A stretch of 64,000 nt of DNA from positions 1 to 64,000 of the forward strand of contig DAIDKF010000003.1 of assembly GCA_027450185.1 (NCBI GenBank), given 5' to 3'. Below the pieces are notes generated by a model, which had not been told where the DNA came from, searched no databases, and was given only the letters and a program-made list of their open reading frames with translations. The position numbers and the translations under genes were made by a program. The DNA comes from Granulicella sp. (GTDB taxonomy: Bacteria; Acidobacteriota; Terriglobia; Terriglobales; Acidobacteriaceae). Shown one piece after another: positions 16,105 to 35,880 of the stretch (positions within the stretch are counted from its first letter, which is position 1; each line of letters starts with the position of its first letter).

Positions 16105-16120
16105 TGTGACAGCGGTCACA
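16105..16120. promoter_or_regulatory. CRP/FNR-family operator upstream of gltA
   Basis: Perfect TGTGA-CAGCGG-TCACA, 52 nt before the gltA ATG. Confidence 0.75.
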
Positions 16121-16172: not shown

Positions 16173-17492
16173 ATGGATAACACCGTAACAGTAATTGATA
16201 ACCGCACAGAAAAACAATATACGTTTCCGGTCACGCATGACACCATCCGAGCGATGGATCTACGCAAGATCAAAGTGAACCCTGATGATTTCGGGATGAT
16301 GTCCTATGATCCAGCCTTCATGAACACAGCATCCTGCCAGAGCAAGATCACGTACATCGATGGAGACAAGGGCATACTGCGTTATCGCGGGTATGATATT
16401 GCCGATCTGGCCGAGCATTGCACGTTCCCCCAGGTGGCCTATCTCGTCATCCATGGCGAACTGCCCACCCCGGAGCAGGAGGCAGAGTGGCTTGCAGCCA
16501 TCCGCATCCACATGGGCATCTTTGAAAACATCAAGAAGTTCATGGAAGGCTTCCGCTACGATGCGCATCCCATGGGCATGCTGGTCAGCACGATTGCAGC
16601 GCTCTCGACCTTCTATCCCGATGCGAAACACGTACGCAACCATGACAATCAGATGCACAGTATTCACCGGATCATTGGAAAGATTCCGATTATTGCTGCC
16701 TATGGATACCGTCATAGCAAGGGTCTCGACTATATTGCTCCCGAGCCGAATCTAGGCTATGCGGAGAACTTCATGCACATGATGTGGGACCGCAGCCCGC
16801 TGCAGCATCTGAAGCATCCGGTGCTGGCGCGCGCGCTCGACGTACTGTTTATACTCCACATCGATCACGAGCAGAATTGTTCCACCAATGCGATGCGCGC
16901 TGTAGGCAGTTCCGAGGCAGACCCGTTCCTTTCGACCGCCGCAGCAGCATCGGCGCTGGCTGGCCCGCTGCATGGGGGCGCTAACGAAGCGGTGCTCAAG
17001 ATGCTCGATGAGATTGGCTCCAAGGAGAATATTCCCGCCTTCATCAAGGGCGTGAAGGAAGGCAAGGAGAAGCTGATGGGCTTCGGGCATCGTGTGTATA
17101 AGAACTACGACCCGCGCGCCCGCATGATCAAGAAGACAGCAGAGTCGGTCTTCGAGATCACAGGTCGGAACAAAAAGATCGACCTGGCTATGGAACTGGA
17201 ACGGATCGCCCTCAGCGACGAGTATTTTATCTCCCGTAAGCTCTATCCGAACGTCGACTTCTACTCCGGCATCATCTACGAGGCCATGGGACTTGAGCCC
17301 AAGATGTTCACCGTGCTGTTTGCGATTCCGCGCGCAGTCGGCTGGCTGGCGCAGTGGCAGGAGTTGATCAACGATCCCGAGCAGAAGATCGCGCGGCCAC
17401 GGCAGGTATATACCGGGTACGACCAGAGGCCGCTGCCTGACTCCTATACCTACGGAGCGAGGACGGAAGAAGCTCTGGTATCCACACACTAA
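16173..17492 (+). CDS. gltA: Citrate synthase
   Basis: GDKGILRYRGYDIADLAEH, GPLHGGANEAVLKML, MGFGHRVYKNYDPRA motifs. Confidence 0.95.
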   Translation: MDNTVTVIDNRTEKQYTFPVTHDTIRAMDLRKIKVNPDDFGMMSYDPAFMNTASCQSKITYIDGDKGILRYRGYDIADLAEHCTFPQVAYLVIHGELPTPEQEAEWLAAIRIHMGIFENIKKFMEGFRYDAHPMGMLVSTIAALSTFYPDAKHVRNHDNQMHSIHRIIGKIPIIAAYGYRHSKGLDYIAPEPNLGYAENFMHMMWDRSPLQHLKHPVLARALDVLFILHIDHEQNCSTNAMRAVGSSEADPFLSTAAAASALAGPLHGGANEAVLKMLDEIGSKENIPAFIKGVKEGKEKLMGFGHRVYKNYDPRARMIKKTAESVFEITGRNKKIDLAMELERIALSDEYFISRKLYPNVDFYSGIIYEAMGLEPKMFTVLFAIPRAVGWLAQWQELINDPEQKIARPRQVYTGYDQRPLPDSYTYGARTEEALVSTH

Positions 17493-17651
17493 GTCGATGC
17501 AAGCGGTAGATGGTGTTTTGAACATTTTCCGGGCGGCCTGCTGTCATGAAATTCCATGGCGGTAGGCCGCTTCCGGATAGTGACCCTGCAACACAGTTCT
17601 GAACCAGCACGTCCACATTGCAACTCCACAGAAAAAGGAAGGTAATTTTCG

Positions 17652-19172
17652 ATGGCCGCGACAAGCTCCAGAATATTGAACTCCACTCTCGCAAAGCTCG
17701 TGATGAGTGCGGAAGAGGCTGCCGCTCTGATCCAGCCGGGATCAATCCTCGGTATGAGTGGTTTTACGGGATCGGGATATCCCAAGGCCGTGCCAACGGC
17801 GCTGGCCGAACGAATTACGGCGGCCAACGAGCGAGGCCAGGGCTTCAAGGTAAGCGTCTTTACAGGTGCTTCGACCGGCCCTGAACTCGATGGTGCGCTG
17901 GCCCTCGTGGATGGCGTCAATCTGCGGCTGCCGTACAACGGCGACGGCGAGATGCGCAAACGCATCAATGCGGGTGAGGCGAATTACATGGACATCCACC
18001 TCAGCCACGTTGCTCAGTTGGTGGACTACGGGTTCCTCGGCAAGATGGATACGGCGATCATCGAGGTGACGGCGATCCTGGAAGATGGGCGCGTCGTTCC
18101 CAGCTCCTCGATGGGCAACAATACGACCTGGATCGACCGTGCAGACAAGATCATTCTGGAGGTCAACTCTGACCAGCCCTTGGAGCTGGAGGGTATGCAT
18201 GACATCTACTACGGGCTGGGACTCCCCCCCAACCGCACGCCCATTCCGCTGGTCAAGTCAGACCAGAGGATTGGTACGCCGTATCTGAAGGTGCCGATGG
18301 AGAAGGTGATTGCGGTTGTGTGTACGGACATCGGAGACCGTGCCAGCCCATTCAAGGCACCCGACGAAGCCTCGCGCAAGATTGCTGGCCACATCATCAA
18401 CTTCCTGGAGTCGGAGGTGAAGAAGGGCCACATGCCGTCAACGCTGTTCCCGCTGCAATCCGGTGTCGGCAACATTGCCAACGCGGTGCTCTTCGCGCTG
18501 GAGGCTGCGCCCTTTGAGGGTATGACTGCCTACACGGAGGTCATTCAGGATGGCATGGTGCATCTGCTCGACAAGGGCAAGCTGGCCAGCCTCTCGGCTA
18601 CGGCCTTCTCGCTGAGTCCCGATGGAATCGAGAAGATCATGCCGAGGATCGGCAGCTACCGGAACCAGATCGTGATCCGGCAGCAGGAGATCTCAAATAA
18701 TCCTGAGATCATCCGCCGGCTTGGGGTTCTGTCGATGAACGCCATGATCGAAGGCGATATCTACGGCAACGTCAACTCGACGCACATGATGGGTTGCAGT
18801 ATGCAGAACGGGATTGGCGGCTCGGGCGATTTCACGCGCAATGCCTTCATCTCGTTCATGATGGCGCCATCGACAGCCAAGGGCGGAGCCATCTCGACGA
18901 TCGTCCCGATGGTGTCGCACATCGACCACACCGAGCACGATCTCCAGGTCATGGTCACTGACCAGGGGCTGGCCGACCTGCGCGGACGTTCACCTAAGCA
19001 GAGGGCACAACTCATCATTGAGAACTGTTCGCACCCCGATTTCCGTCCGGCATTGCGCGATTACTACAACCGTGCAGAAAAGCTGGCACCTGGAAAACAC
19101 ACCCCCCACCTCCTCGACGAGTCCTTGTCGTGGCACAGTCGGTTCCTGCGCACGGGAAGCATGTTGGCTTAG
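17652..19172 (+). CDS. Acetyl-CoA hydrolase/transferase family, likely succinyl-CoA:acetate CoA-transferase
   Basis: SAEEAAALIQPGSILGMSGFTGSGYPKAVP, GVGNIANAV, GDIYGNVNSTHMMG, GNIANAVLFAL motifs typical of AarC/Cat1-type enzymes. Confidence 0.88.
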   Translation: MAATSSRILNSTLAKLVMSAEEAAALIQPGSILGMSGFTGSGYPKAVPTALAERITAANERGQGFKVSVFTGASTGPELDGALALVDGVNLRLPYNGDGEMRKRINAGEANYMDIHLSHVAQLVDYGFLGKMDTAIIEVTAILEDGRVVPSSSMGNNTTWIDRADKIILEVNSDQPLELEGMHDIYYGLGLPPNRTPIPLVKSDQRIGTPYLKVPMEKVIAVVCTDIGDRASPFKAPDEASRKIAGHIINFLESEVKKGHMPSTLFPLQSGVGNIANAVLFALEAAPFEGMTAYTEVIQDGMVHLLDKGKLASLSATAFSLSPDGIEKIMPRIGSYRNQIVIRQQEISNNPEIIRRLGVLSMNAMIEGDIYGNVNSTHMMGCSMQNGIGGSGDFTRNAFISFMMAPSTAKGGAISTIVPMVSHIDHTEHDLQVMVTDQGLADLRGRSPKQRAQLIIENCSHPDFRPALRDYYNRAEKLAPGKHTPHLLDESLSWHSRFLRTGSMLA

Positions 19173-21436: not shown

Positions 21437-21452
21437 TGTGATTCGAGTCACA
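21437..21452. promoter_or_regulatory. CRP/FNR-family operator upstream of hemY
   Basis: Perfect TGTGA-TTCGAG-TCACA about 110 nt before the hemY start. Confidence 0.7.
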
Positions 21453-21562: not shown

Positions 21563-23035
21563 GTGATGAGGAAGACAGTCGTCATCGGCGGAGGAATCTC
21601 AGGTCTAGCGACCGCGTATGCCCTCCAAACCTCCGCAGGCACGGACGCCAATTACCTCTTGCTGGAGAGCTCCGGTCATCTTGGCGGCAAGATCACGACT
21701 GACTCTGCTGACGGGTTCCTGATCGAAGGCGGCCCCGATTCTTTCCTGACGCAAAAGCGCGCAGCAGTGGATCTTTGCCGTGAGCTGGGGCTAGGCGACC
21801 AGATCATCGGCTCCAACCACACAGCGACGCCCTCCACCTATGTTCTGAACCGCGGCCGCCTGCATCCCATGCCCGAGGGCATGATGTTAATGGCGCCGAC
21901 GATGATCCTTCCCATTCTGCGCTCGCGACTGATCTCCTGGCCGGGCAAACTGCGCATGGGGTTGGAGATTTTCGTGGGAAGGAACGAAACGAACCCCGAC
22001 GAGAGCCTTGCCAGCTTTGTGCGCCGACGCATGGGGTCTGAGCTACTGGACAAGATTGCCGGGCCGCTGATGGCTGGAATTCACGCCGGCGACCCCGAGC
22101 GTCTCAGCCTGCGCAGCACCTTCCCGATCTTCTCGGACATGGAGAAGACCCATCGCAGCCTGGTGCTGGGCATGATGAAGCGGAAGAAGGCGCAGGCAGG
22201 CCAGGCGTCCAAGGCGGCGAAGACGTCAACGGCTAAGCCGCCGTCGATGTTCACTACGCTCTCCGGCGGCCTGCAACAGCTTCCTGACGCCATCGCGGCG
22301 CGGCTCAATCCGCAGCAGGTGAGGCTCAACTGTCGCGTGCAATCACTGGCCATGGAAGGCGATCAGTACAGCGTTCGGCTGGCCGATGGGTCGTCCATTC
22401 TGGCCGACAACATCGTCTTCGCTACTCCCGCGTATGTGACTGCGGACATCATTCAGCAGCTTGATCCCGCACTGGCCGGGAGGCTGCGCGCCATCCGCTA
22501 TGTTTCTACCTCGACGGTCTCGCTCGCCTTTCGCCGCAGCGAACTGACCTGCGCTCTCGACGGCTTTGGCTTCATCGTGCCCGCCGCAGAGGGCCGCAAG
22601 ATCAACGCGTGCTCGTGGTCCTCCACGAAGTTCAGTCATCGTGCGCCTGAAGACTATGTGCTGATACGCGTTTTTATCGGCGGCGCTCTCACGGAAGATC
22701 TGGCCGAGCAGGATGAGGCGACGCTGATCGACATTGCGCGGCAGGAGTTGCGCGAGATCATGGGCATCACCGCAACGCCGGTGCTGGCCCGGGCCTACCG
22801 TTGGAGGAAATCCAACCCGCAATACAATGTCGGCCACAGCGTGCTGGTCGATGAGATCGATCGCAGCGTCGCGGAGCATCCGGGGCTGTATCTCGCAGGC
22901 GCGGCCTTCCGAGGCTCTGGAATTCCGGACTGCATTCAGAGCGGAATGGACACAGCCAGAAAGATCATGCAGCAGCCACCCATCCCCTCGCGCAGCATTG
23001 AAGCCAACGCATCACCCGTTCCTGTCACATCTTAG
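21563..23035 (+). CDS. hemY: Protoporphyrinogen/coproporphyrinogen III oxidase
   Basis: KTVVIGGGISGLATAYAL FAD motif, GGKITTDSADGFLIEGGPDSFLTQK, C-terminal GLYLAGAAFRGSGIPDCIQSG. Confidence 0.92.
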   Translation: MMRKTVVIGGGISGLATAYALQTSAGTDANYLLLESSGHLGGKITTDSADGFLIEGGPDSFLTQKRAAVDLCRELGLGDQIIGSNHTATPSTYVLNRGRLHPMPEGMMLMAPTMILPILRSRLISWPGKLRMGLEIFVGRNETNPDESLASFVRRRMGSELLDKIAGPLMAGIHAGDPERLSLRSTFPIFSDMEKTHRSLVLGMMKRKKAQAGQASKAAKTSTAKPPSMFTTLSGGLQQLPDAIAARLNPQQVRLNCRVQSLAMEGDQYSVRLADGSSILADNIVFATPAYVTADIIQQLDPALAGRLRAIRYVSTSTVSLAFRRSELTCALDGFGFIVPAAEGRKINACSWSSTKFSHRAPEDYVLIRVFIGGALTEDLAEQDEATLIDIARQELREIMGITATPVLARAYRWRKSNPQYNVGHSVLVDEIDRSVAEHPGLYLAGAAFRGSGIPDCIQSGMDTARKIMQQPPIPSRSIEANASPVPVTS

Positions 23036-23045
23036 GAGAACTCCC

Positions 23046-24203
23046 ATGTCATCCCCAATTTCGTCTGTAGATATTCGAACGATCCCCACTCCCGCTCCGG
23101 CGAGGCAAGGACATCCGTCCACTCATCCGCACCACTCCGCCAACCATGACTACTCCAGCCAGCCAATGCTGGTGTACTGGGAGATGACGCAGGCGTGCGG
23201 CCTGGCGTGCCGTCACTGTCGCGCCGAGGCTGTCTCAACACCGCATCCCGACGAACTCACCTACGAGGAAGGACGGAACCTGCTGCGTCAAATCGCGGCC
23301 TTCGACAGACCCACGCCGCATCTGGTCTTTACCGGCGGCGACCCTCTCCGCCGCACGGATCTGTTTGACCTGCTGGACTACGCGCGCTCTCTTGGCATCA
23401 ACGTCTCCATCACCCCCAGCGCAACCTCCGACCTCACGCTCGACGTGATGGCCCGCCTCAGGGATCATGGGATCGACAGCTTCGGGCTCAGCCTGGACGG
23501 GTCCACGGCTGCTCGCCACGAGGCTGTGCGCGGCGTCGAAGGCTGCTTCGACTGGACCATCGCAGCAGCAAAAAATGCAGCCAGCCTCGGCGTTCCCATA
23601 CAGATCAACACCCTGGTCGCCGAGGAGACCGTCGACGACATTCCTGCGATCTACGAGTTGCTGAAGAGCACCTTCCCGGTGATGCGCTGGAGCCTCTTCT
23701 TCCTGATCGAAGTGGGCCGCGGCAAGGTTTTGCAGCCCATCTCCAGTGAGCGCGGCGAGCAGTTGATGAACTGGATCTACGATCAATCGAAGATCGCTCC
23801 GTTTGCGGTTGCAACCACCGAGGCGCCGTCCTATCGCCGCGTTGCGCTGAGCCGCATGCGCGCGGCGGGCATGGTCGCCGCCGAGATCGAGCGCACTCCC
23901 GTCTATCGCGGCTTCGGCATCCGCGACGGCCACGGCATCATGTTCATCTCCAACCAGGGTGATATCTGCCCTGCTGGCTTCCTTCCGCTGGCTATGGGCA
24001 ACGTCCGCACCGATCAGCTTCAGGATATCTACCGCAATGCTCCGATGTTCCAGGCGCTTCACAATCCGAATCTGTTCAAGGGCAAGTGCGGACGCTGCGA
24101 GTATCGCGCTCTGTGCGGCGGATCGCGCGCGCGAGCCTTCGCCGCAACCGGTGATGCGCTGGCCAGCGATCCGTTCTGCCACTACGAACCCGCCGTCCAC
24201 TAA
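23046..24203 (+). CDS. Radical SAM/SPASM protein (NirJ/AhbD-like, TIGR04053-like)
   Basis: ATG at 23046; WEMTQACGLACRHCRAEA (CxxxCxxC), C-terminal GKCGRCEYRALCGGSRARAFA SPASM cysteines. Confidence 0.85.
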   Translation: MSSPISSVDIRTIPTPAPARQGHPSTHPHHSANHDYSSQPMLVYWEMTQACGLACRHCRAEAVSTPHPDELTYEEGRNLLRQIAAFDRPTPHLVFTGGDPLRRTDLFDLLDYARSLGINVSITPSATSDLTLDVMARLRDHGIDSFGLSLDGSTAARHEAVRGVEGCFDWTIAAAKNAASLGVPIQINTLVAEETVDDIPAIYELLKSTFPVMRWSLFFLIEVGRGKVLQPISSERGEQLMNWIYDQSKIAPFAVATTEAPSYRRVALSRMRAAGMVAAEIERTPVYRGFGIRDGHGIMFISNQGDICPAGFLPLAMGNVRTDQLQDIYRNAPMFQALHNPNLFKGKCGRCEYRALCGGSRARAFAATGDALASDPFCHYEPAVH

Positions 24204-24353: not shown

Positions 24354-25271
24354 TCAAATCTGGCATTCCGGGTCGGGATCAGCATCGAACAGGATCGTCA
24401 TGACAGGGCAGGGAGCCTCCGCAATAATCCGGTACACAATGGGCAGTGGATCATCAGCAGAGAGGACGCTGGCGCGGCGAACACCAAGAAGGATTAGGCT
24501 TGCTGCCTGTTGCCGCGCATAATCCACGACTGCGTTGGAGATCTCGCTTCCGAAGCTCACGTGATAGACCGACTCTTCGATATGAATGGGACTGGTCGCC
24601 ACGAGATGCTTTAATGCGCAGGTCAGAAGCTCGGGCAGCGTTTGATCGCCGGGTGCCGGTTGCAGAGTTCGCGGCAGTACGTGGAGACAGTGCAACCGCA
24701 AGTCTGTACTCTTGCAATATGAGACGGCAAGGTGAATCGCCTGCCGTGTGACGGAATGAAAGTCTGTGGCAAAGATTGCCGGCCCACGCGAAGGGTTAGG
24801 CGTCATCAGATCGGCGGCCACCAGTCCCACGGTCATAATCGGACATGTAGCCTTGCGCATTACCTTTTCCGCGGTTGGTCCAAAGGCAAGACGCTTGGAT
24901 CCGCGAGGTTCGCTTGTACCCAGAATTGCCAGGTCGATCTGTGCCGATTCAATCTCCGCAAGGATCTTCTCAGATGCGACTCCGGTCTCGAGCCGGGTTG
25001 TGCAACTCACACCTATTGCAGCCGCACGATCCTTCATCTGCCGCAGCAGTCGTAACGCAGCCTTCTCCCTTGCGCCTGCGTCGGTAAACAGTGCGGCGTC
25101 GGTAGCGGTTGCAGCGTCCACCTTGCAAACATGCAGGATTCGCAGCGAAGCCTTATTCATCTGACAGAAATTGAGTGCTGCCTGGAGTGCGCCCTCAAAC
25201 CCCGTGGAGAAATTGCTGGCGAACAGAACCCGCCTAAAGGGAGATCGCACCTTCCTGGCCAAATTGGGCAT
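24354..25271 (-). CDS. Universal stress protein with tandem Usp domains
   Basis: FRRVLFASNFSTGFEGALQAA, DLAILGTSEPRGSKRLAFGPTAEKVMRKATCPIMTVG, second half repeats the fold. Confidence 0.85.
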   Translation of the reverse strand: MPNLARKVRSPFRRVLFASNFSTGFEGALQAALNFCQMNKASLRILHVCKVDAATATDAALFTDAGAREKAALRLLRQMKDRAAAIGVSCTTRLETGVASEKILAEIESAQIDLAILGTSEPRGSKRLAFGPTAEKVMRKATCPIMTVGLVAADLMTPNPSRGPAIFATDFHSVTRQAIHLAVSYCKSTDLRLHCLHVLPRTLQPAPGDQTLPELLTCALKHLVATSPIHIEESVYHVSFGSEISNAVVDYARQQAASLILLGVRRASVLSADDPLPIVYRIIAEAPCPVMTILFDADPDPECQI

Positions 25272-25416: not shown

Positions 25417-25432
25417 AGTGATAGTTGTCACA
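25417..25432. promoter_or_regulatory. CRP/FNR-family operator upstream of usp
   Basis: AGTGA-TAGTTG-TCACA, one mismatch to the perfect palindrome, 146 nt before the usp start. Confidence 0.55.
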
Positions 25433-25607: not shown

Positions 25608-26321
25608 CTACGTAGAGAGACTCTCGAGTCCAGCCGCTGAAACCACACGGAAGGACGAACCGTGAATCTCGATCAAGCCATCCTTCTGGAACCTGCCGAG
25701 GGCGCGGGTCACGGTCTCTCGCGACGTTCCCGCCAGATTCGCCAGCTCTTCATGTGTCAGCGCCATCGTGAAGCGCATATCCGTGCCATTGCAGCCCGCC
25801 GCAGCGCGGCCCCATTCGAGCAGCACTCCAGCCAGTCTCCCCGCCGTGGAGCCCGACAGTGCGAGTCGTCGCGCATCGAAGAATGCCGACTTGTACTCCT
25901 CTGATAGCGCCTTTGCCGCCAGCATGCTCGCCTGACCATACTTTTCGAGGAACGCCAGAAGCTCACTGCGGCGAATCTTCTTCACCACGCACGGCTCGAT
26001 GGTCTCCGCTGTCACCTCGAAGTGCGTTCCCGAGATCGCCGCACCCAGCCCCAGCAGGTCTCCCGGAACCGCTATCTTCAGAATGTGTGTCTTGCCTTCG
26101 CGCGAGGTGCAGGACAGCTTCACCTGTCCCATGCAGACAATCGTGGCGGCGTCACACACATCATCTTCCTGGAAGATGATCGATCGCTTTGGCAGCTTCA
26201 TCTGCATGCCCAGCGACTCGAAGTCCACCCTCGCCGGGCCTGAGAGATCGCACAGGATACGCAGCGACCGATCCGAACAGTTCTTGCAGCTGGTGTTTGC
26301 GTATTGTTGAACAAATGTCAT
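25608..26321 (-). CDS. Crp/Fnr family transcriptional regulator
   Basis: N-terminal CKNCSDRSLRILC cysteines, cNMP-like barrel, HTH EELANLAGTSRETVTRALGRFQKDGLIEI. Confidence 0.92.
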   Translation of the reverse strand: MTFVQQYANTSCKNCSDRSLRILCDLSGPARVDFESLGMQMKLPKRSIIFQEDDVCDAATIVCMGQVKLSCTSREGKTHILKIAVPGDLLGLGAAISGTHFEVTAETIEPCVVKKIRRSELLAFLEKYGQASMLAAKALSEEYKSAFFDARRLALSGSTAGRLAGVLLEWGRAAAGCNGTDMRFTMALTHEELANLAGTSRETVTRALGRFQKDGLIEIHGSSFRVVSAAGLESLST

Positions 26322-26406: not shown

Positions 26407-26422
26407 TGTGACCGTGGTCACT
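26407..26422. promoter_or_regulatory. CRP/FNR-family operator between regulator gene and a small divergent ORF
   Basis: TGTGA-CCGTGG-TCACT, one mismatch, 86 nt upstream of the regulator start. Confidence 0.6.
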
Positions 26423-26843: not shown

Positions 26844-26859
26844 TGTGATGCTCATCACA
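26844..26859. promoter_or_regulatory. CRP/FNR-family operator
   Basis: Perfect TGTGA-TGCTCA-TCACA in the 0.5-kb intergenic region before the decaheme cytochrome. Confidence 0.7.
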
Positions 26860-26861
26860 TT

Positions 26862-26896
26862 GGACGATATACGCACAACTCCACCGTATATCGTCC
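26862..26896. repeat. Perfect 11-bp inverted repeat, 13-nt spacer
   Basis: GGACGATATAC ... GTATATCGTCC directly adjacent to the operator at 26844. Confidence 0.7.
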
Positions 26897-26997: not shown

Positions 26998-27013
26998 TGT
27001 GATGAAAGTCACA
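26998..27013. promoter_or_regulatory. CRP/FNR-family operator upstream of the cytochrome cluster
   Basis: Perfect TGTGA-TGAAAG-TCACA about 107 nt before the decaheme gene start. Confidence 0.75.
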
Positions 27014-27119
27014 GGTGGTTCGAGGCGGCTGAACTATGGTTGCTCCTGTTGATGGGATGGCCGACTTCAAGCAGTAGATTGTGCAACAAAACTAACGCGC
27101 CAAACAGAGGTGTTACCGT

Positions 27120-28064
27120 ATGTGGCAATTGCCCCGCAAAATAACGATGTTCTTCCTTCTGGTTGCGGCGGTCGGAGTTCTGACCGCGTGCGGTGCCCGC
27201 GTGGCAACTGCACAGACGCAGCCCCAGACGCAAACCCTGAAACATTCGCCCACCGCAGCGCCAGCCGCTGCTGACAACGGGTACGTAGGCAACGATACCT
27301 GCGCAACCTGCCACCAGGACAAGGCCGATGCTATGGCCAACAATCCGCACTCCAAGCTGGCGCTCAAGCACGGGGGAACCGGAGCTACCTGCGAGAGCTG
27401 CCATGGACCAGGTCAGGCCCATGTGGACGGCGGTGGCGATGTTACCAAGATCGTCCGCTTCGAGAAACTGACGCCGCAGCAGATCGACAAGACCTGCCTG
27501 GGCTGCCACGCCAATACGCATCCAAACTTCCTGCGTTCGCCGCATGCCAAGGCAGACGTAAGCTGCCTGAGCTGCCACAGTATCCACAAATCAGTGCCCG
27601 ATACGAAGCTGCTGGTAGCCAAGCAGCCGACCCTCTGCTTCAAGTGTCACACTGACATCAAGCCGGCGTTCGATATGCCCTTCCACCATCGGGTAAATGA
27701 AGGCCTTCTGCAGTGCAGCGACTGCCACAATGTTCACGGCACGTTCCTGAATAACAACATCAAGAACACCGCCGATCAGAATGCGATCTGCACCAAGTGC
27801 CATATGGAGACGCGCGGACCCTTTGTGTACGAGCATCCTCCGGTCCGGGCTGAAGGTTGCCTGGCGTGCCATACACCCCACGGCTCGCAGAACGCTCGGC
27901 TGTTGAATGTGCCCAACATCAATACGTTGTGCAACCAGTGCCATAGCCCGGTGGGCGCGGATAACATCCACGGCCAGGGCCAGGGTTCTTCCGAGATCAC
28001 GCCCTGCACCGACTGCCACACCATGATCCACGGGTCCAATATCAATGCCGCTTTCATCCGGTAG
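27120..28064 (+). CDS. DmsE/MtrA-family decaheme c-type cytochrome
   Basis: Signal peptide and exactly ten CxxCH motifs (CATCH, CESCH, CLGCH, CLSCH, CFKCH, CSDCH, CTKCH, CLACH, CNQCH, CTDCH). Confidence 0.92.
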   Translation: MWQLPRKITMFFLLVAAVGVLTACGARVATAQTQPQTQTLKHSPTAAPAAADNGYVGNDTCATCHQDKADAMANNPHSKLALKHGGTGATCESCHGPGQAHVDGGGDVTKIVRFEKLTPQQIDKTCLGCHANTHPNFLRSPHAKADVSCLSCHSIHKSVPDTKLLVAKQPTLCFKCHTDIKPAFDMPFHHRVNEGLLQCSDCHNVHGTFLNNNIKNTADQNAICTKCHMETRGPFVYEHPPVRAEGCLACHTPHGSQNARLLNVPNINTLCNQCHSPVGADNIHGQGQGSSEITPCTDCHTMIHGSNINAAFIR

Positions 28065-28145: not shown

Positions 28146-30785
28146 GTGCAACGCCAGCAAAGAGTACTTCAAATGAGGCTTGAGATGACAACGATGGATC
28201 GGATTTCCCGGTTACCCAAGGAACGCCCCACCCGCACCAGAGCTCAACGGGTTGCAGGGGGCATGGTAGCCGCCGTGCTACTACTAATGACAGGAATCGC
28301 AGTTGCCCAGGGCCCAACCCTGACATCGGGCGGCTCCACTAACACGCTGCAGACAACCCCCGTGGTCCAGAACGGATATGTGGTCCACCAGGCCGTCGAT
28401 CTGGGTGGCCATGTCGCCGGAATCTTCGGCAGCAAGGACATGTACGATACGCTGGTCAACATCCAGTCCGGACCCCGCGTCCTCGGTGAGACCTTTACGC
28501 TGCGGGCGGTTCCGGGCAGCAAGCATCCGCTGTTCGACACCTTGACGGCCTTTAGTTCCGGCTTCGGTGGCGACCCGAACAACTTTGCCAAGATGGACTT
28601 CTCCAAGGGCAAGATCTATGAGTTCTCGGGCATGTTCCGGCGCGACCGCCAGTACTTCGACTACGATCTGCTGGGCAACGCGCTGATCCCGGGTGGGCAG
28701 TCGATTCCCATCGGGCCGGGCGGCTCGCTGGGCTCCTACGCATGGCCGCAAATGAACGAAACGCCTTTCAAGTTCAACACTGTGCGCCGGATGACCGACA
28801 CCAACCTGACGATCTTCCCGATCTCCAAGGTGACCTTCCGCGTAGCCTATTCGCAGAACATCTTTCAGGGACCGACGTTGAGCCCCGGAGGCTATGGGCC
28901 GGGTGTCTTCGGCATGCTCACGCAGGAGAACATGCGCAACAGTAACGATGATTTCATCGGCGCCGTTGACTGGAAGCCCTGGCAGCAGACCAAGTTCACC
29001 TTTGAGGAAGAGGTTAACCACTACAAGGAAGACTCCTATTACACACTCGCCCCGGGCACGCTGAATGTGCAGGAGCCCGACGGCATGCCGGTCTCTCTGG
29101 GAGGCTATAACAGCACCTCGCCCTATGCTGCCAGCAACTGCAGCTCCAGCATCGCCACCCCCGGCGTCATTCTCACCTCGGCCTCCGGAACGAGCGGCCT
29201 ACCCGTAGTGGATCCGGCCTGCGCTGTGAATGCAAGCTACCTCCGCTCGCAGCCTACGCGCATCCTCTACCCGACGGAGATCTTCCGCTTCCAAAGCTCC
29301 AGCATCAAGAACATCGCAGTGAATGGCAGCTTTCACTATACGGAGGCGAGATCCAATCTGCCCAACTACTACGAACGCTGGACTGGGATTGACGGAGCCG
29401 TTCGTTCCGAGACGTTTACAGGCTATGCTTCTGCCAAGCGGCATGATGTAGGCGCCGAGTACGGCATGACCTGGCAGGCACTCAAGAAGTTGAGCTTCTC
29501 CGACCAGGTCTACTTCTCCAACGTCCACGAGCCAGGCAGCACCGATGTTACCGGCGTCAGCTACAGCACGCCAACGACGGCAGGTAGCGAGACCATCAAC
29601 TACGCCGGTACGCTGACGGCCGGAACGGCCACCATCGAGGGCAACAGCAATGGTGTCCTCTCCTACGGCTACTTTGGCCAGAAGATCCTGACCAACAACC
29701 TGACAGCGACCTGGGACGCTTCGTCTCGCGCCACCATCTCGCTCACCTACCGCTACGGAACCGACACTATTGTTCAGGGCGCCGCCGTATCGACGAGCCC
29801 CGCCAATAGCAACTGGACGATCTTTGAAAATGGCGGCATCCTCAACGTCGCGCTGCGTCCCACCTCGCACTGGGATGTCAATGGAACCGTCGAGGCGATC
29901 TACGACAATAACGTGCTCACCCCGCTCGATCCACGCCAGACGCAGCACTACAGGTTCCACACCCTGTATCGGCCAAGGCCGTGGGCGTCAGCGTCCCTTG
30001 CCTACAATGACCTGGAACGGCACGACAACACCAACAACTCCGGCGACTGGTCCAAACAGTCCGGTGGCGTCTATATCGGCCCCGGCCTACCGCCGACCGC
30101 CGCGGGCAGCGCGGCAGGTCCGCTCGATCACGTCGACCACAGCCGGGTGTTGAGCATGGGCCTTGTACTGGCGCCGAGCGAGCGCTACGGGCTTGACATC
30201 AACTACGCCTACTCGGATGTGTATACGTCAACCAACGTCTGCTACGATGCCGCATCCTCCACTACACTGCCCGGTGCAGCTACGGCCAGCGGAACGGCTT
30301 GCCCTGGAGCTACCGTCCGTGGAGCGTCCTACTATGAGTTTGGGCCGACCAAGGACTTCATGGATGCACCCACGCAGTATGCCTCCGTTGGTCTGCTGCT
30401 GTCCCCGGTCAACTCGGTCCATGGTGGTCTGGGATATCGCATCAGCGCCGTCAGCGGAAATCAGATGTTCAACAACGCACAGGCGGTCAACGGTTCCTTG
30501 CAGTCGGCCTATCAATCGCCCTACGTCAACCTTGCCTGGACGGTTCATCCGGGATGGATCTGGAAGGCGGAGTACGACTACTACGGATACGGTGAGGGCG
30601 GTCCTTCCGGCACACCTTACTGTAGCGTCAACAACCCCACCCTCTCCACTCCGGCAACCGTGGTTCCATGCAACTCTACTACGCTCACGGGCCCAACCGG
30701 CCTTACCGAACCCTCGTCCGGCCTGAGCGCTCCACGGAACTTCCACGCCAACCTTCTTACCATCTCCATGCACTATGAGTTCTAG
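28146..30785 (+). CDS. MtrB/PioB-like outer-membrane beta-barrel
   Basis: About 880 aa, signal peptide, alternating beta-strand pattern, C-terminal HYEF, directly after the decaheme gene; start may be internal. Confidence 0.75.
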   Translation: MQRQQRVLQMRLEMTTMDRISRLPKERPTRTRAQRVAGGMVAAVLLLMTGIAVAQGPTLTSGGSTNTLQTTPVVQNGYVVHQAVDLGGHVAGIFGSKDMYDTLVNIQSGPRVLGETFTLRAVPGSKHPLFDTLTAFSSGFGGDPNNFAKMDFSKGKIYEFSGMFRRDRQYFDYDLLGNALIPGGQSIPIGPGGSLGSYAWPQMNETPFKFNTVRRMTDTNLTIFPISKVTFRVAYSQNIFQGPTLSPGGYGPGVFGMLTQENMRNSNDDFIGAVDWKPWQQTKFTFEEEVNHYKEDSYYTLAPGTLNVQEPDGMPVSLGGYNSTSPYAASNCSSSIATPGVILTSASGTSGLPVVDPACAVNASYLRSQPTRILYPTEIFRFQSSSIKNIAVNGSFHYTEARSNLPNYYERWTGIDGAVRSETFTGYASAKRHDVGAEYGMTWQALKKLSFSDQVYFSNVHEPGSTDVTGVSYSTPTTAGSETINYAGTLTAGTATIEGNSNGVLSYGYFGQKILTNNLTATWDASSRATISLTYRYGTDTIVQGAAVSTSPANSNWTIFENGGILNVALRPTSHWDVNGTVEAIYDNNVLTPLDPRQTQHYRFHTLYRPRPWASASLAYNDLERHDNTNNSGDWSKQSGGVYIGPGLPPTAAGSAAGPLDHVDHSRVLSMGLVLAPSERYGLDINYAYSDVYTSTNVCYDAASSTTLPGAATASGTACPGATVRGASYYEFGPTKDFMDAPTQYASVGLLLSPVNSVHGGLGYRISAVSGNQMFNNAQAVNGSLQSAYQSPYVNLAWTVHPGWIWKAEYDYYGYGEGGPSGTPYCSVNNPTLSTPATVVPCNSTTLTGPTGLTEPSSGLSAPRNFHANLLTISMHYEF

Positions 30786-30828: not shown

Positions 30829-31149
30829 ATGAAGATAAACCTGGGACTTGGATTGGTCGCTGCCATGGCAGCGACCAATCTCCCTGCTGTCGCCCAGAAC
30901 TCGGGCGCGGCGACCTATAACGCCAAGTGTCAGATGTGCCACGCGGCGGATGGTTCGGGCAGCGCTCCTGCCGGAAAGGCGATGAAGGCTCCGTCTTTTC
31001 TGTCCCCGGCTGCTGTAAAAGAGCCAACCGCAAATCTGATTGCGATTACCTCCACTGGCAAAGGCAAGATGCCCGCTTACTCGGGAAAGCTTACCGATGC
31101 CCAGATCAAGGATGTGGTCGCGTACATCCGCACGCTACAGAAGAAATAG
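30829..31149 (+). CDS. Monoheme class I c-type cytochrome (copy 1)
   Basis: Signal peptide, CQMCH, GKMPAYSGKLTDAQIKDVVAYIRTL. Confidence 0.88.
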   Translation: MKINLGLGLVAAMAATNLPAVAQNSGAATYNAKCQMCHAADGSGSAPAGKAMKAPSFLSPAAVKEPTANLIAITSTGKGKMPAYSGKLTDAQIKDVVAYIRTLQKK

Positions 31150-31159
31150 GAGCATCACA

Positions 31160-31468
31160 GTGAAAGTTAATTTTGTTACGATTGCAGCCTCGCTTCTCGC
31201 TGTTTCCATGGCAATGCCGGTGCTTGCCCAATCATCGGGAGCCACCATCTACAAGGGTAAGTGTCAGATGTGCCATATGGCAGACGGTACCGGGAACAAG
31301 GCGATGAAAGTACCTGCTTTCAGCGCCGCTGCCCCCGAGGCAAAACTGATTGCTGCCGTCAAAAACGGCATCAGTACGGGCCCTGTCAAGATGCCAGCCT
31401 ACGCTGGCAAGCTGACCGATGCTGACATCACTTCGGTTGTTGCTTACATCAAGACACTCAAAAAGTAG
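31160..31468 (+). CDS. Monoheme class I c-type cytochrome (copy 2, GTG start)
   Basis: Signal peptide, CQMCH, VKMPAYAGKLTDADITSVVAYIKTL. Confidence 0.87.
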   Translation: MKVNFVTIAASLLAVSMAMPVLAQSSGATIYKGKCQMCHMADGTGNKAMKVPAFSAAAPEAKLIAAVKNGISTGPVKMPAYAGKLTDADITSVVAYIKTLKK

Positions 31469-31475
31469 CGGACGT

Positions 31476-31515
31476 CGCGCTGCGTGATCTTCCTCTCCGA
31501 GGATCACGCAGTGCG
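31476..31515 (+). repeat. Intercistronic stem-loop between monoheme copies 2 and 3
   Basis: CGCGCTGCGTGATC...GATCACGCAGTGCG, 14-bp stem with one wobble. Confidence 0.65.
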
Positions 31516-31616
31516 TAAAATTCTAGATGATTGTATCCGGTACTATGGAACGAAAGTTGGATGCGACAGCCTGCATCTCGCGAGTCGTTCAACCTCACAA
31601 TTAGACAGGAGCAATC

Positions 31617-31934
31617 ATGAAACTCATTCTTTCCGCCGCAGCCGCCTCCCTTCTCGCCGTCTCGTTTGTTGCCCCAGCAGTTGCGCAGAGTGCAGGTGCG
31701 GCCACCTACAAGGCAAAGTGTCAGATGTGCCATGGTGCTGATGGCCAGCCCACGATGCCTGGAAAATCGATGAAGGCGATGCCCTTCAAGTCCCCGGAAC
31801 TGATCAGTGCCTCCAATGCAACGCTGATCGCCTCGGTCACCAACGGCAAAGGCAAGATGCCGGCCTACGCAGGCAAACTCAGTGCTGGAGAGATCAAGGA
31901 TGTAGTAGCGTACATCCGCACGCTGCAGAAGTAA
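31617..31934 (+). CDS. Monoheme class I c-type cytochrome (copy 3)
   Basis: Signal peptide, CQMCH, GKMPAYAGKLSAGEIKDVVAYIRTL. Confidence 0.88.
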   Translation: MKLILSAAAASLLAVSFVAPAVAQSAGAATYKAKCQMCHGADGQPTMPGKSMKAMPFKSPELISASNATLIASVTNGKGKMPAYAGKLSAGEIKDVVAYIRTLQK

Positions 31935-32263
31935 CGATGTGAAAGAGGCAGGTCATGTATCCGTCAGGTAAATACCGGAGAGACTGGGTCAAGCCCCTTC
32001 TCTTCAGCAGGTTGAAGCCAGCGAGATTGTCACAGCCAGAAAAGCATCCAGCTTCCACGATTCCGCCGATTCTTCTCCCCGCAAATTACCTGATGGGTCA
32101 GACCCCACCTTCTCAGCACCGCCATCTTCAAGACACAAACAATTGCTGGCACGAGCTTTTCTGCCTGCGATCTATCTTCGACCGCCTCAGTAATATTCCT
32201 ATCCAGGTTGCCGGGTTTCTGCTGCGCTGCGACGAGCAGGGCTCAAGAGATCCGGCAACAGCG

Positions 32264-33439
32264 ATGGGGCCCTCTTTATGGGCATGGCACACAGCGGCAT
32301 GCGCCGTGCTGTTTCTACTCGCGGTCCCGTCAGTCTTGCATGCACAAACCGACTGTCTCTCCTGCCACGGCGACGTCACTATGCAGGACGCATCCGGTAA
32401 CAATGTGGGTGTTGATGCCCCAACGTTTCATTCCAGCGTGCATGGCAGCCTGGAGTGTAGCGCCTGCCACACATCCATCACGGCTTACCCGCATCCAGAC
32501 CATCCGCAAGCTGTGAAATGTGCCTCCTGCCATGCAGATGAGGCAGCAGCGGTTGTGGGCAGCGTGCATGAAAACGCGTCGGATCATCCTTGCACCAGTT
32601 GTCATGGAAGCGCGCACGCTATCCTGCCCAAGGACAACCCTAGGTCCGCGGTCTACCCCCTGAACATTCCTGCTACCTGCGGCAAGTGCCATGGCGATGC
32701 AGCGATGGCGAAGAAGAATCATCTGGCCAATGTCTACCCGACGTACATGGATTCCATCCATGGATACGCCGTGAGCAAAGAAGGATTGTTGGTCGCCGCT
32801 AATTGCGAGAGTTGCCACGGATCGCACCACATCCTCAGCCATACCAGCCCGCAGAGTCCCACCTACAAGACCAATATTCCAGACACCTGCGGAAAATGTC
32901 ATGCAGGAATCCAGGCGAAATACATGGCGGGCATCCATGGCAAGGCTCTTGCCAGCGGAAACCTGAAGGCTCCAGCATGCACCAACTGTCACACCGCGCA
33001 TGCCATTGCGCAGCCGTCGATGGCGCTGTCCACGCCGATGTGCGGCTCCTGCCATAAGGCCCAGCTATCCACCTATCGTGACACGTTTCACTCCCAGGTA
33101 AGTGATCTGGGCAGCTACGTCGAGGTGGCACGTTGCTCCGATTGTCATGGGGAGCACGATATTCTGCCAGCGTCCGATCCTCGCTCGCCGGTCAACCCTG
33201 CCAACCTCGTCAAGACCTGCGGCAGGTGCCACCAGAATGCCAACGCCGGCTTTGTGAAGTATGAGCCGCACGCGAACCCCCACAACCGCCGCTCGTCTCC
33301 GGTGCTCTACTACATTCGGCTCTTCATGGTGCTGCTGATCAGCGGTGTGATGACGTTCTTCCTGCTCCACACCTTACTGTGGCTGATCCGCTCTCTGGTG
33401 GAGAAGACCAACGGTGGATTTGCCAAAGGAGGGAAATGA
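32264..33439 (+). CDS. Membrane-anchored multiheme c-type cytochrome, 11 CxxCH motifs
   Basis: Start at MGPSLWAWHTAACAVLFLLAVPSVLHAQ signal; eleven CxxCH motifs; C-terminal TM YYIRLFMVLLISGVMTFFLLHTLLW; ORF extends upstream to 31955. Confidence 0.85.
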   Translation: MGPSLWAWHTAACAVLFLLAVPSVLHAQTDCLSCHGDVTMQDASGNNVGVDAPTFHSSVHGSLECSACHTSITAYPHPDHPQAVKCASCHADEAAAVVGSVHENASDHPCTSCHGSAHAILPKDNPRSAVYPLNIPATCGKCHGDAAMAKKNHLANVYPTYMDSIHGYAVSKEGLLVAANCESCHGSHHILSHTSPQSPTYKTNIPDTCGKCHAGIQAKYMAGIHGKALASGNLKAPACTNCHTAHAIAQPSMALSTPMCGSCHKAQLSTYRDTFHSQVSDLGSYVEVARCSDCHGEHDILPASDPRSPVNPANLVKTCGRCHQNANAGFVKYEPHANPHNRRSSPVLYYIRLFMVLLISGVMTFFLLHTLLWLIRSLVEKTNGGFAKGGK

Positions 33440-34338
33440 TGGCTGACCAGACAAAAACCGTAACGGGAAGCTCGGCGTCTCATCAGGCAGTCGCAGGAGA
33501 ACCTTACGTTCAAGGTTCGGGTGGCGAGCGTTACTTCTTCCGTTTCACGTTGATGCAGCGATATATGCATGCGATCATGTTCACCACGTTTCTAGGCCTG
33601 GCGGCGACAGGGCTGACGATACGCTTCAGCACCAATGCGTGGGCCCAGCATTTCGCATTTGCTATTGGTGGATTCGGAGCCATCCTTTTCATTCATAAGC
33701 TCTGCGCCGTTACTCTCACATTGGAGTTCCTCTACCACGTGAAGGATATTGCGGTTCGTATCCTGTTTCGAAAGGAAAAGGGCCTGCTGTGGGGGCCGAG
33801 TTCCATGGTGCCCAACCTGCAGGATCTCAAGGACATTATCGGAAACTTCCGTTGGTTCTTCGGCTTAGGTCCGAAGCCGGAGATTGGACGCTACGCTTAC
33901 TGGGAAAAGTTCGACTACTGGGCAGTTTTCTGGGGAATGATCATCATCGGATTCTCCGGCTATGTCATGTGGTTTGGACCCTTCTTCGGCCGGTTCCTTC
34001 CGGGCTGGGCATTGAACGCTGTGCAGATCGTCCATGGTGAAGAAGCCCTTCTTGCCATCACCTTTATCTTTTCAATTCACTTCGTGAATTCACACCTGCG
34101 TCCAGACAATTTCCCTATGGATACAACGATCTTCACAGGTGTCATGACTGAAGATGAGTTCAAGGAACGGCACGGCCACGAATATAACAAGCTCGCAACT
34201 GAGGGCAAGCTGGACGAGAAGCTTACAACCAGGCCGCCTACGTGGCTCGTGAACTTCAGCAGATTGGTAGGGTTTACGGCCGTCTTCATTGGGCTCGTCC
34301 TACTTGTACTAACAGTCAGTGCTTATTTTCGAGAATAA
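33439..34338 (+). CDS. b-type cytochrome (FdnI/HydC/cytochrome b561-like membrane subunit)
   Basis: ATGA overlap with preceding gene; about four to five TMs with His residues (QRYMHAIMF, FIHKLCAV, IVHGEEALLA, FSIHFVNSHLRPDNFPMD). Confidence 0.82.
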   Translation: MADQTKTVTGSSASHQAVAGEPYVQGSGGERYFFRFTLMQRYMHAIMFTTFLGLAATGLTIRFSTNAWAQHFAFAIGGFGAILFIHKLCAVTLTLEFLYHVKDIAVRILFRKEKGLLWGPSSMVPNLQDLKDIIGNFRWFFGLGPKPEIGRYAYWEKFDYWAVFWGMIIIGFSGYVMWFGPFFGRFLPGWALNAVQIVHGEEALLAITFIFSIHFVNSHLRPDNFPMDTTIFTGVMTEDEFKERHGHEYNKLATEGKLDEKLTTRPPTWLVNFSRLVGFTAVFIGLVLLVLTVSAYFRE

Positions 34339-34443
34339 ACAAAACACGTGCGAGGTATGGCAGCATCTTAGTAGGATGGTTGTCAGTCGCACGCCGCAAA
34401 CATCTGTAATCAGGAACGAAAATCCCGCAACGAGGCGTCCTTA

Positions 34444-35880
34444 GTGTCTTTATTCGATAACTTCACCAAACGTTGGCTGCAACCCTTCTTCTTTTTAGGA
34501 AAAAATAATCTCAGTCTTGTCGGCGGCGCGATTACGACTGCGTCTGCCTTTGTCATGGTTGGCTTCTGGATGGTCGATGTCCTCGGCCACGGGGGCTCAG
34601 CCAACCCGTACCTTGGCATTATCACCTTTCTGATTCTGCCGGCATTTTTCATCGTGGGTCTCATCATGATCCCGATCGGCATCGCCATTCAGCGGAGAAA
34701 GTTGCTCGTTATTGGCCGCCTGCCATCCATCTATCCCGACATCGATTTCAACGAGCCCATGTTCCGTCATGCGCTCAACTTTGTTGTTGTCGCTACCTTC
34801 ATTAATTTCGTCATTGTTGGCATCGCCAGTTACCGTGGCGTCGCCTACATGGATACGCCGGGATTCTGCGGTGCAGCCTGCCATGTTCCCATGCAGCCCC
34901 AGTGGGTCGCATACCAACACTCTCCGCATTCCCATGTGGACTGCGTTGAGTGTCACGTGGGCAGCGGTGCCGGGAATTATTTCCACGCCAAGATGGCAGG
35001 CATGAAGCAGTTGGTCGGCGTCACGTTCGATACCTACCCGCGCCCCATCCTTGCACCTCTCTCAGAGCTGCGGCCGGCGCGCGCCACCTGCGAAGCGTGC
35101 CACGCACCCAAGCGCTTCGTCGGGGATCGTCTGCTGGTCAAGACCACCTTTGCCGACGACGATAAGAACACCATGACCAAGACCATCCTGGTCCTGCACC
35201 TGGGCGGAGTCGATTCCCTCTCGCGCTTGAGCGGCATCCACGGCCACCACCTCAATCACTTTGAGTACGTCGCCACCGATGATGAAGATCAGACCATCGT
35301 TGCAGTCTACGAGCCCGGCCCTAACGGTTCCCAGACCGAGTACCTCAGTTCTGACTGGAAGGGTCCCGTCAAGGGTGTGCGCCGCGTGATGGACTGCATG
35401 GATTGTCACAATCAGGCAGCCCACGCCTATCAGACCGCAGAAGATGCAGTGGACGAATCCATGGCGATCGGTACGCCCAGTGCCGATCTTCCCTTCGTCC
35501 ACAAGCAGGGTCTGCAGCTAATCCAGGCCAAGTACTCCTCGCAGCGTGAGGCCGCCACCAAGATTCAGGCGGGCCTTGAGGACTTCTACCGCACCCAATA
35601 TCCCGCCGTCTGGACCGCCCAGCATGATCAGGTGGAAAAGGCCGCACAGACCCTCATCACCATCTACAAACAGAATGTCTTCCCCGACATGAAGGTGACC
35701 TGGGGTACGTACCCGAACAACATCGGGCACACGAACTTCCCGGGTTGCTTCCGCTGTCATGATGGCAACCATACCTCCAAGGATGGCAAGACCATCACCA
35801 ACGACTGCTCCGCTTGCCATAATCTTCTGGCTGTGGATGAATCGAATCCGAAGCTGTTGAGCGAGATGGGCTTCCAGTAA
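34444..35880 (+). CDS. NapC/NirT-like membrane multiheme c-type cytochrome (ImcH-like architecture)
   Basis: N-terminal TMs, FCGAACHVPM (CxxxCH) plus CVECH, CEACH, CMDCH, CFRCH, CSACH; GTG start. Confidence 0.82.
   Translation: MSLFDNFTKRWLQPFFFLGKNNLSLVGGAITTASAFVMVGFWMVDVLGHGGSANPYLGIITFLILPAFFIVGLIMIPIGIAIQRRKLLVIGRLPSIYPDIDFNEPMFRHALNFVVVATFINFVIVGIASYRGVAYMDTPGFCGAACHVPMQPQWVAYQHSPHSHVDCVECHVGSGAGNYFHAKMAGMKQLVGVTFDTYPRPILAPLSELRPARATCEACHAPKRFVGDRLLVKTTFADDDKNTMTKTILVLHLGGVDSLSRLSGIHGHHLNHFEYVATDDEDQTIVAVYEPGPNGSQTEYLSSDWKGPVKGVRRVMDCMDCHNQAAHAYQTAEDAVDESMAIGTPSADLPFVHKQGLQLIQAKYSSQREAATKIQAGLEDFYRTQYPAVWTAQHDQVEKAAQTLITIYKQNVFPDMKVTWGTYPNNIGHTNFPGCFRCHDGNHTSKDGKTITNDCSACHNLLAVDESNPKLLSEMGFQ

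Follow-up and report, generated by a model that had tools for sequence, protein, structure and literature searches.

A predicted four-cysteine CRP/FNR-type regulator with CRP-like operators at an acidobacterial electron-transfer locus

Our results indicate that the CRP/FNR-superfamily regulator encoded in the analysed 64-kb stretch of DNA (hereafter, the window) is probably a four-cysteine activator that responds to redox state or O2 and controls an electron-transfer regulon through CRP-type sites, with a cluster that is probably [4Fe-4S]; we give this reading a probability of roughly 0.7. A redox regulator acting on CRP-like sites had been proposed in an original prediction made from the sequence, and this part is well supported by four co-conserved cysteines, the lack of a cAMP cassette, a CRP-type helix, footprinted operators and respiratory targets, whereas the fourth cysteine had been misassigned. 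The host draft genome (2.17 Mb, 54% complete) can be ascribed to a Granulicella-like member of the Acidobacteriota, since ten public Granulicella/Acidobacteria genomes have an ortholog 84-97% identical to the regulator. The features discussed below are located in Table 1.

Table 1. Coordinates of the regulator gene, its proposed functional residues, the operators and the predicted target genes; positions are those of the window unless a contig is given.
Feature	Position	Strand	Remarks
CRP/FNR-superfamily regulator gene	25608..26321	-	237 aa; ORF, Pfam domains, orthologs
Recognition helix SRETVTR (residues 200-206)	25704..25724	-	R-E-x3-R as CRP R180/E181/R185
Codon C12	26286..26288	-	aligned with FNR ligand C20
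Codon C15	26277..26279	-	aligned with FNR ligand C23
Codon C24	26250..26252	-	third N-terminal Cys; x8 spacing, FNR x5
Codon C63, proposed fourth ligand	26133..26135	-	aligned with FNR R72
Codon C111, ligand of the original prediction; probably no ligand	25989..25991	-	aligned with CRP C92 / FNR S119
Operator TGTGACCGTGGTCACT upstream of regulator (putative autoregulation)	26407..26422	.	one mismatch; conservation 100% in half-sites, 49% in flanks (11 sequences)
Operator TGTGATGAAAGTCACA, proximal site of cytochrome operon	26998..27013	.	exact palindrome; conserved in orthologs
-10-like hexamer TATGGT	27035..27040	+	first base 29.5 bp from proximal operator centre
Operator TGTGATGCTCATCACA, distal site of cytochrome operon	26844..26859	.	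exact; half-sites 98% conserved, N6 52%
Operator AGTGATAGTTGTCACA upstream of universal stress protein gene	25417..25432	.	one mismatch; TTGAAT/TTCAAT conserved at a distance of 29.5 bp
Operator TGTGATTCGAGTCACA upstream of protoporphyrinogen oxidase	21437..21452	.	exact palindrome
Operator TGTGACAGCGGTCACA upstream of citrate synthase	16105..16120	.	exact palindrome
Four exact sites outside the window (L053-L056)	G000 C4:124475, C4:129329, C18:13194, C22:6958		nuo, ccm, pyruvate:ferredoxin oxidoreductase genes
Citrate synthase, predicted target	16173..17492	+	NCBIfam PRK05614
Protoporphyrinogen oxidase, predicted target	21563..23035	+	TIGR00562
Radical SAM protein directly after protoporphyrinogen oxidase	22950-24203		TIGR04053; heme b synthase AhbD as runner-up match
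Universal stress protein, two Usp domains, predicted target	24354..25271	-	Pfam Usp
DmsE-family decaheme c-type cytochrome, predicted target	27120..28064	+	TIGR03508, 266 bits
Large 879-aa protein	28146..30785	+	ORF; MtrB/PioB-like porin partner by context only
Remaining electron-transfer cluster	30832..35880	+	small c-type cytochromes, multiheme cytochrome, cytochrome b561-like, NapC/NrfH-like

The regulator displays the two domains of the CRP/FNR superfamily, a cNMP_binding beta-roll (PF00027, 4.8e-16) and a Crp-type winged helix (HTH_Crp_2, PF13545, 4.4e-19), both well above the Pfam cut-off. None of the curated NCBIfam models attains its cut-off on this protein, and the canonical Fnr model, PRK11161, gives 51.9 bits against a cut-off of 228 bits; by its predicted ligand set (Cx2Cx8C plus C63), we place the regulator outside canonical FNR. 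Its family was sampled with 108 members from Acidobacteriota, aligned together with E. coli FNR and CRP using MAFFT. The C12-x2-C15-x8-C24 arrangement near the N-terminus, recognised by the original prediction, is found in the translation, and C12 and C15 pair with the FNR ligands C20 and C23 both in MAFFT alignment with E. coli FNR and CRP and in profile-profile comparison (hhalign), so that the Cx2C element of canonical FNR is present. The third cysteine is found at x8 across the family, not at the x5 spacing of canonical FNR (C29), and the C24 column is Cys in 96 of 109 homologs. Four plasmid relatives are either ordinary FNR (Cx2Cx5C with C122) or devoid of these cysteines, and none has the Cx2Cx8C plus C63 set.

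C63, overlooked by the original prediction, goes with the three N-terminal cysteines. When every column past residue 26 was tested against the intact triad (211 columns, 108 homologs), C63 ranked first (p=7.8e-11; next column, 4.8e-4), being present in 93/93 triad-bearing homologs vs 5/15 triad-less ones. Losses were mapped on a tree built leaving out the cysteine columns concerned, and all five inferred losses of C63 occurred in clades without the triad; since triad-less branches constitute 20% of the tree length, the chance of this pattern is about 3e-4. A strict independent-pairs test, whose pairs are too few for significance, gave 2-3 in the same direction and 0 in the opposite one. The alignment pairs C63 with FNR R72, where a beta-roll strand ends; in the jelly-roll fold, we take this strand to adjoin the one bearing FNR C122. 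The structure predicted by AlphaFold (14 sequences; mean pLDDT 59, N-terminus <50) was too poor to place the cysteines. Judging from the sequence data, C63 is the likeliest fourth ligand.

The original prediction had proposed C111 as the fourth ligand, equivalent to FNR C122. This cysteine is indeed present within EPCVVKKIRR, and 59 of 109 homologs, as well as 8 of the 10 closest orthologs, share it; however, it falls on FNR S119 (MAFFT and hhalign) and on CRP C92 (MAFFT), the by-eye placement being three residues off, and the position of FNR C122 is taken by K114, with C63 co-conserved instead. Furthermore, C111 is replaced by Ala in the Granulicella orthologs L041 and L042 and by Thr in the next relatives, L004-L008, though all of them retain the triad, and its association with the triad ranks 160 of 211 columns (p=0.77; p 0.7-1 over the tests). 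Loss of the cysteines in orthologs had been named beforehand as grounds for abandoning the proposal: C12, C15 and C24 are kept in orthologs, while C111 is lost in close ones. C111 was ruled out as a ligand on the grounds of its alignment, its conservation pattern and the missing association with the triad, and its equivalence to C122 appears scarcely credible.

The same four cysteines could alternatively constitute a thiol-disulfide switch or a structural zinc site in place of an Fe-S centre, with TGTGA-N6-TCACA still being read. By sequence they suit zinc or paired disulfides equally, and FixK2 is regulated by a redox-active thiol without Fe-S (PMC12937710), but the CxxC pair aligns with two FNR ligands, three N-terminal cysteines plus one distal cysteine is the FNR pattern, and the target set is made up of respiratory, heme and cytochrome genes; we consider this alternative unlikely.

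The SRETVTR recognition helix had been described as CRP-like, as indeed it is: it carries Arg, Glu and Arg at the positions of CRP R180, E181 and R185, and not the V-E-x2-S-R helix of canonical FNR. Superfamily-wide, the operator bases G3 and A6 show a correlation with R180 and E181 (PMC1274295). The cAMP-contacting residues of CRP (E72, R82 and S83) are not conserved in the regulator, in which GLGAAIS-GTHFEVT replaces GELGLFEEGQERSAW. Clear cAMP-binding residues, also named beforehand as contrary evidence, were not found in the protein, and regulation by cAMP was ruled out by the absence of the phosphate-binding cassette. The C-terminal cysteine cluster of the Bacillus-type Fnr is likewise lacking, there being no Cys beyond C177.

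The operators agree with this helix. Pattern searches of the 2.17-Mb draft, with the reversed pattern as control, yielded eight exact TGTGA-N6-TCACA palindromes vs 0 control matches; four of these are inside the window, at citrate synthase, protoporphyrinogen oxidase and the cytochrome operon (two). Together with two one-mismatch sites, the window holds six TGTGA-type sites vs 1.64 expected from shuffles, bearing out the expectation of such operators around the gene. That they would not be of the FNR TTGAT type proved equally correct, since the window search for TTGAT-N4-ATCAA returned no match, even allowing one mismatch, and FNR-type sites were ruled out there.

The operators of the regulator, cytochrome, stress-protein and heme promoters each have a counterpart at the corresponding position in orthologous loci. 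Their half-sites are 93-100% conserved vs an intergenic mean of 58% (11-sequence alignment; ten orthologous loci), and conservation drops in the N6 spacer of the distal cytochrome site. At the cytochrome promoter, the top -10-like hexamer is spaced by exactly 29.5 bp from the centre of the operator and reads TAnnnT in 11/11 sequences; at the stress promoter the top hexamer is likewise exactly 29.5 bp off, with TTSAAT in 9/9 sequences, and at the heme promoter TAMCCT occupies the same offset in most sequences. As read from these hexamers, the 29.5-bp spacing is that of class II activators, with a predicted centre at -41.5. The same search found no -10-like element at class II spacing for the regulator's own site, which may thus act otherwise, and the centre of the citrate synthase operator is located 60.5 bp ahead of the start.

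A second palindrome, GGACGATATACG-N11-CGTATATCGTCC, was observed at 26862-26896, its centre lying 27.5 bp from that of the distal TGTGA site. It is conserved as approximately YGATAWTCG-N11-CGAWTATCR at the same distance in 9 of 10 orthologs, occupies the place of a decayed TGTGA site in locus L036, and shows no enrichment elsewhere in the genome; it is probably the operator of another regulator of the cytochrome operon.

With regard to the predicted targets, the 879-aa protein has no Pfam or NCBIfam match and sits between the decaheme cytochrome and the small cytochromes, the position of an MtrB/PioB-type porin; from its gene content, the cytochrome cluster resembles a conduit carrying electrons to the cell exterior. 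The ORF translations reveal three consecutive, mutually similar small c-type cytochrome genes at 30832-31934. Citrate synthase is followed by succinyl-CoA:acetate CoA-transferase (16173-19172), acetate-linked TCA genes adjoining the regulon. The palindrome is also that of HcpR1, which binds exactly TGTGA-N6-TCACA and probably employs heme (PMC5701242), and the regulator might be a heme-binding NO sensor of this kind; nevertheless, the FNR-type cysteine motif is missing in HcpR proteins (PMC1274295) and conserved here, and no hcp or nap genes were observed among the targets, making this alternative very improbable.

Of the other four exact sites, all outside the window, one lies between nuoH and nuoJ and another ahead of nuoE; a third separates nuoA from a divergently oriented pyruvate:ferredoxin oxidoreductase gene, and the fourth marks the junction of ccmB with ccmC (the nuo, ccm and oxidoreductase genes were named by reading translated ORFs, not from HMM results). 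Their location suggests that the putative respiratory regulon extends beyond the window.

The TGTGA sites might instead belong to a different CRP/FNR protein encoded in the genome, with the regulator controlling something else. Family genomes carry several paralogs, with as many as six copies in one genome; where a close family member is missing, sites still occur at 0.87/Mb vs 0.20 for the control; and the host draft is incomplete. Against this, in every ortholog the regulator gene has footprinted sites on either side, and a survey of all Crp-type helices in three relatives (G497, G273 and G147) found R-E-x3-R only in members of this cysteine family, including cysteine-degenerate ones, with the cAMP cassette in none of those proteins. 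Moreover, 120 family genomes contain 1264 TGTGA-type sites vs 84 control matches, and genomes with more family members have denser sites (Spearman 0.62 vs 0.04 for the control pattern, a correlation that ignores phylogeny). Foreign ownership of the sites is conceivable but doubtful, and a sister member of the same cysteine family is a possible occupant. Nine homologs (L015, L029, L058, L077, L086, L101, L105, L108 and L110) have lost both the intact triad and C63 and retained the R-E-x3-R helix; they are apparently cluster-free sisters, which could compete for the same TGTGA sites.

From these residue patterns, sites and target genes, we infer Fe-S ligation by the cysteines, an O2 or redox signal, binding under anaerobic conditions and occupancy of the sites by this protein, not a sister; the identity of the cluster, the signal and the sign of regulation are likewise drawn by analogy. 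The regulator would be a homodimeric CRP/FNR-fold transcription activator. Its N-terminal Cx2Cx8C loop, together with C63 of the beta-roll, would ligate a redox-active metal centre, for which an O2-labile [4Fe-4S] cluster is the likeliest candidate. On the model of FNR, the protein would carry the cluster when reduced or anoxic, dimerise, bind TGTGA-N6-TCACA via the SRETVTR helix, and bring RNA polymerase to class II promoters with the site centre at about -41.5, activating the decaheme-cytochrome electron-transfer operon, the universal stress protein and heme biosynthesis; it would also bind its own promoter.

Beyond this protein, we favour, with moderate confidence, the existence of a CRP/FNR lineage, widespread in Acidobacteriota, whose Fe-S ligand architecture (Cx2Cx8C and a beta-strand cysteine at FNR position 72) would be a third type, apart from those of Gram-negative FNR and the Gram-positive Fnr, and combined with CRP-type DNA recognition. 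Our literature search found no paper on an FNR of Acidobacteria, on a displaced fourth ligand or on the Cx2Cx8C plus C63 set, nor one naming an O2/redox regulator of the Acidobacteriota. If true, the lineage would represent a main anaerobic/redox regulator family of a phylum abundant in soils and bogs, controlling extracellular electron transfer; the family and its operator provide a testable anaerobic regulon, among whose members are the decaheme cytochrome conduit, complex I, a pyruvate:ferredoxin oxidoreductase and heme-synthesis genes. Should C63 be a ligand, the CRP/FNR fold would gain a further cluster seat, and ligand position and DNA code would evolve separately.

Among known systems, the Gram-negative FNR (E. 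coli; Aliivibrio fischeri 5E44) shares with the regulator the CRP fold, the CxxC at C20/C23, a third N-terminal cysteine, one distal cysteine, the class II activator geometry and respiratory targets. It differs in its x5 third cysteine (x8 in the regulator), its distal ligand C122 (K in the regulator, with C63 at FNR R72), and its V-E-x2-S-R helix and TTGAT-N4-ATCAA sites, as opposed to R-E-x3-R and TGTGA-N6-TCACA, and identity between both proteins is about 24% in the profile alignment. The Gram-positive Fnr of Bacillus, with a C-terminal cluster bound by three cysteines and Asp141 (PMC3520743), is a precedent for a [4Fe-4S] protein in the superfamily but differs in its C-terminal ligands, of which the regulator has none; a Thermoanaerobacter Fnr ortholog has been linked with CRP-like sites (PMC1274295). 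HcpR1 of Desulfovibrio shares the R-E-x3-R helix, the exact palindrome and binding to its own promoter (PMC5701242), but it is devoid of the FNR-type cysteine motif conserved in the regulator and is probably a heme sensor. E. coli CRP shares the SRETVxR helix and the operator, and differs in having E72, R82 and S83 and no N-terminal cysteine loop. The description of the regulator as a hybrid is thus apt in that a CRP-like helix and sites accompany an FNR-like cysteine set, but overstated as an exception: the pairing of an Fe-S sensor with CRP-like sites is no novelty, since the Gram-positive Fnr and HcpR1 are precedents. As predicted from the sequence, it is the Cx2Cx8C plus C63 set that constitutes a defined departure from canonical FNR.
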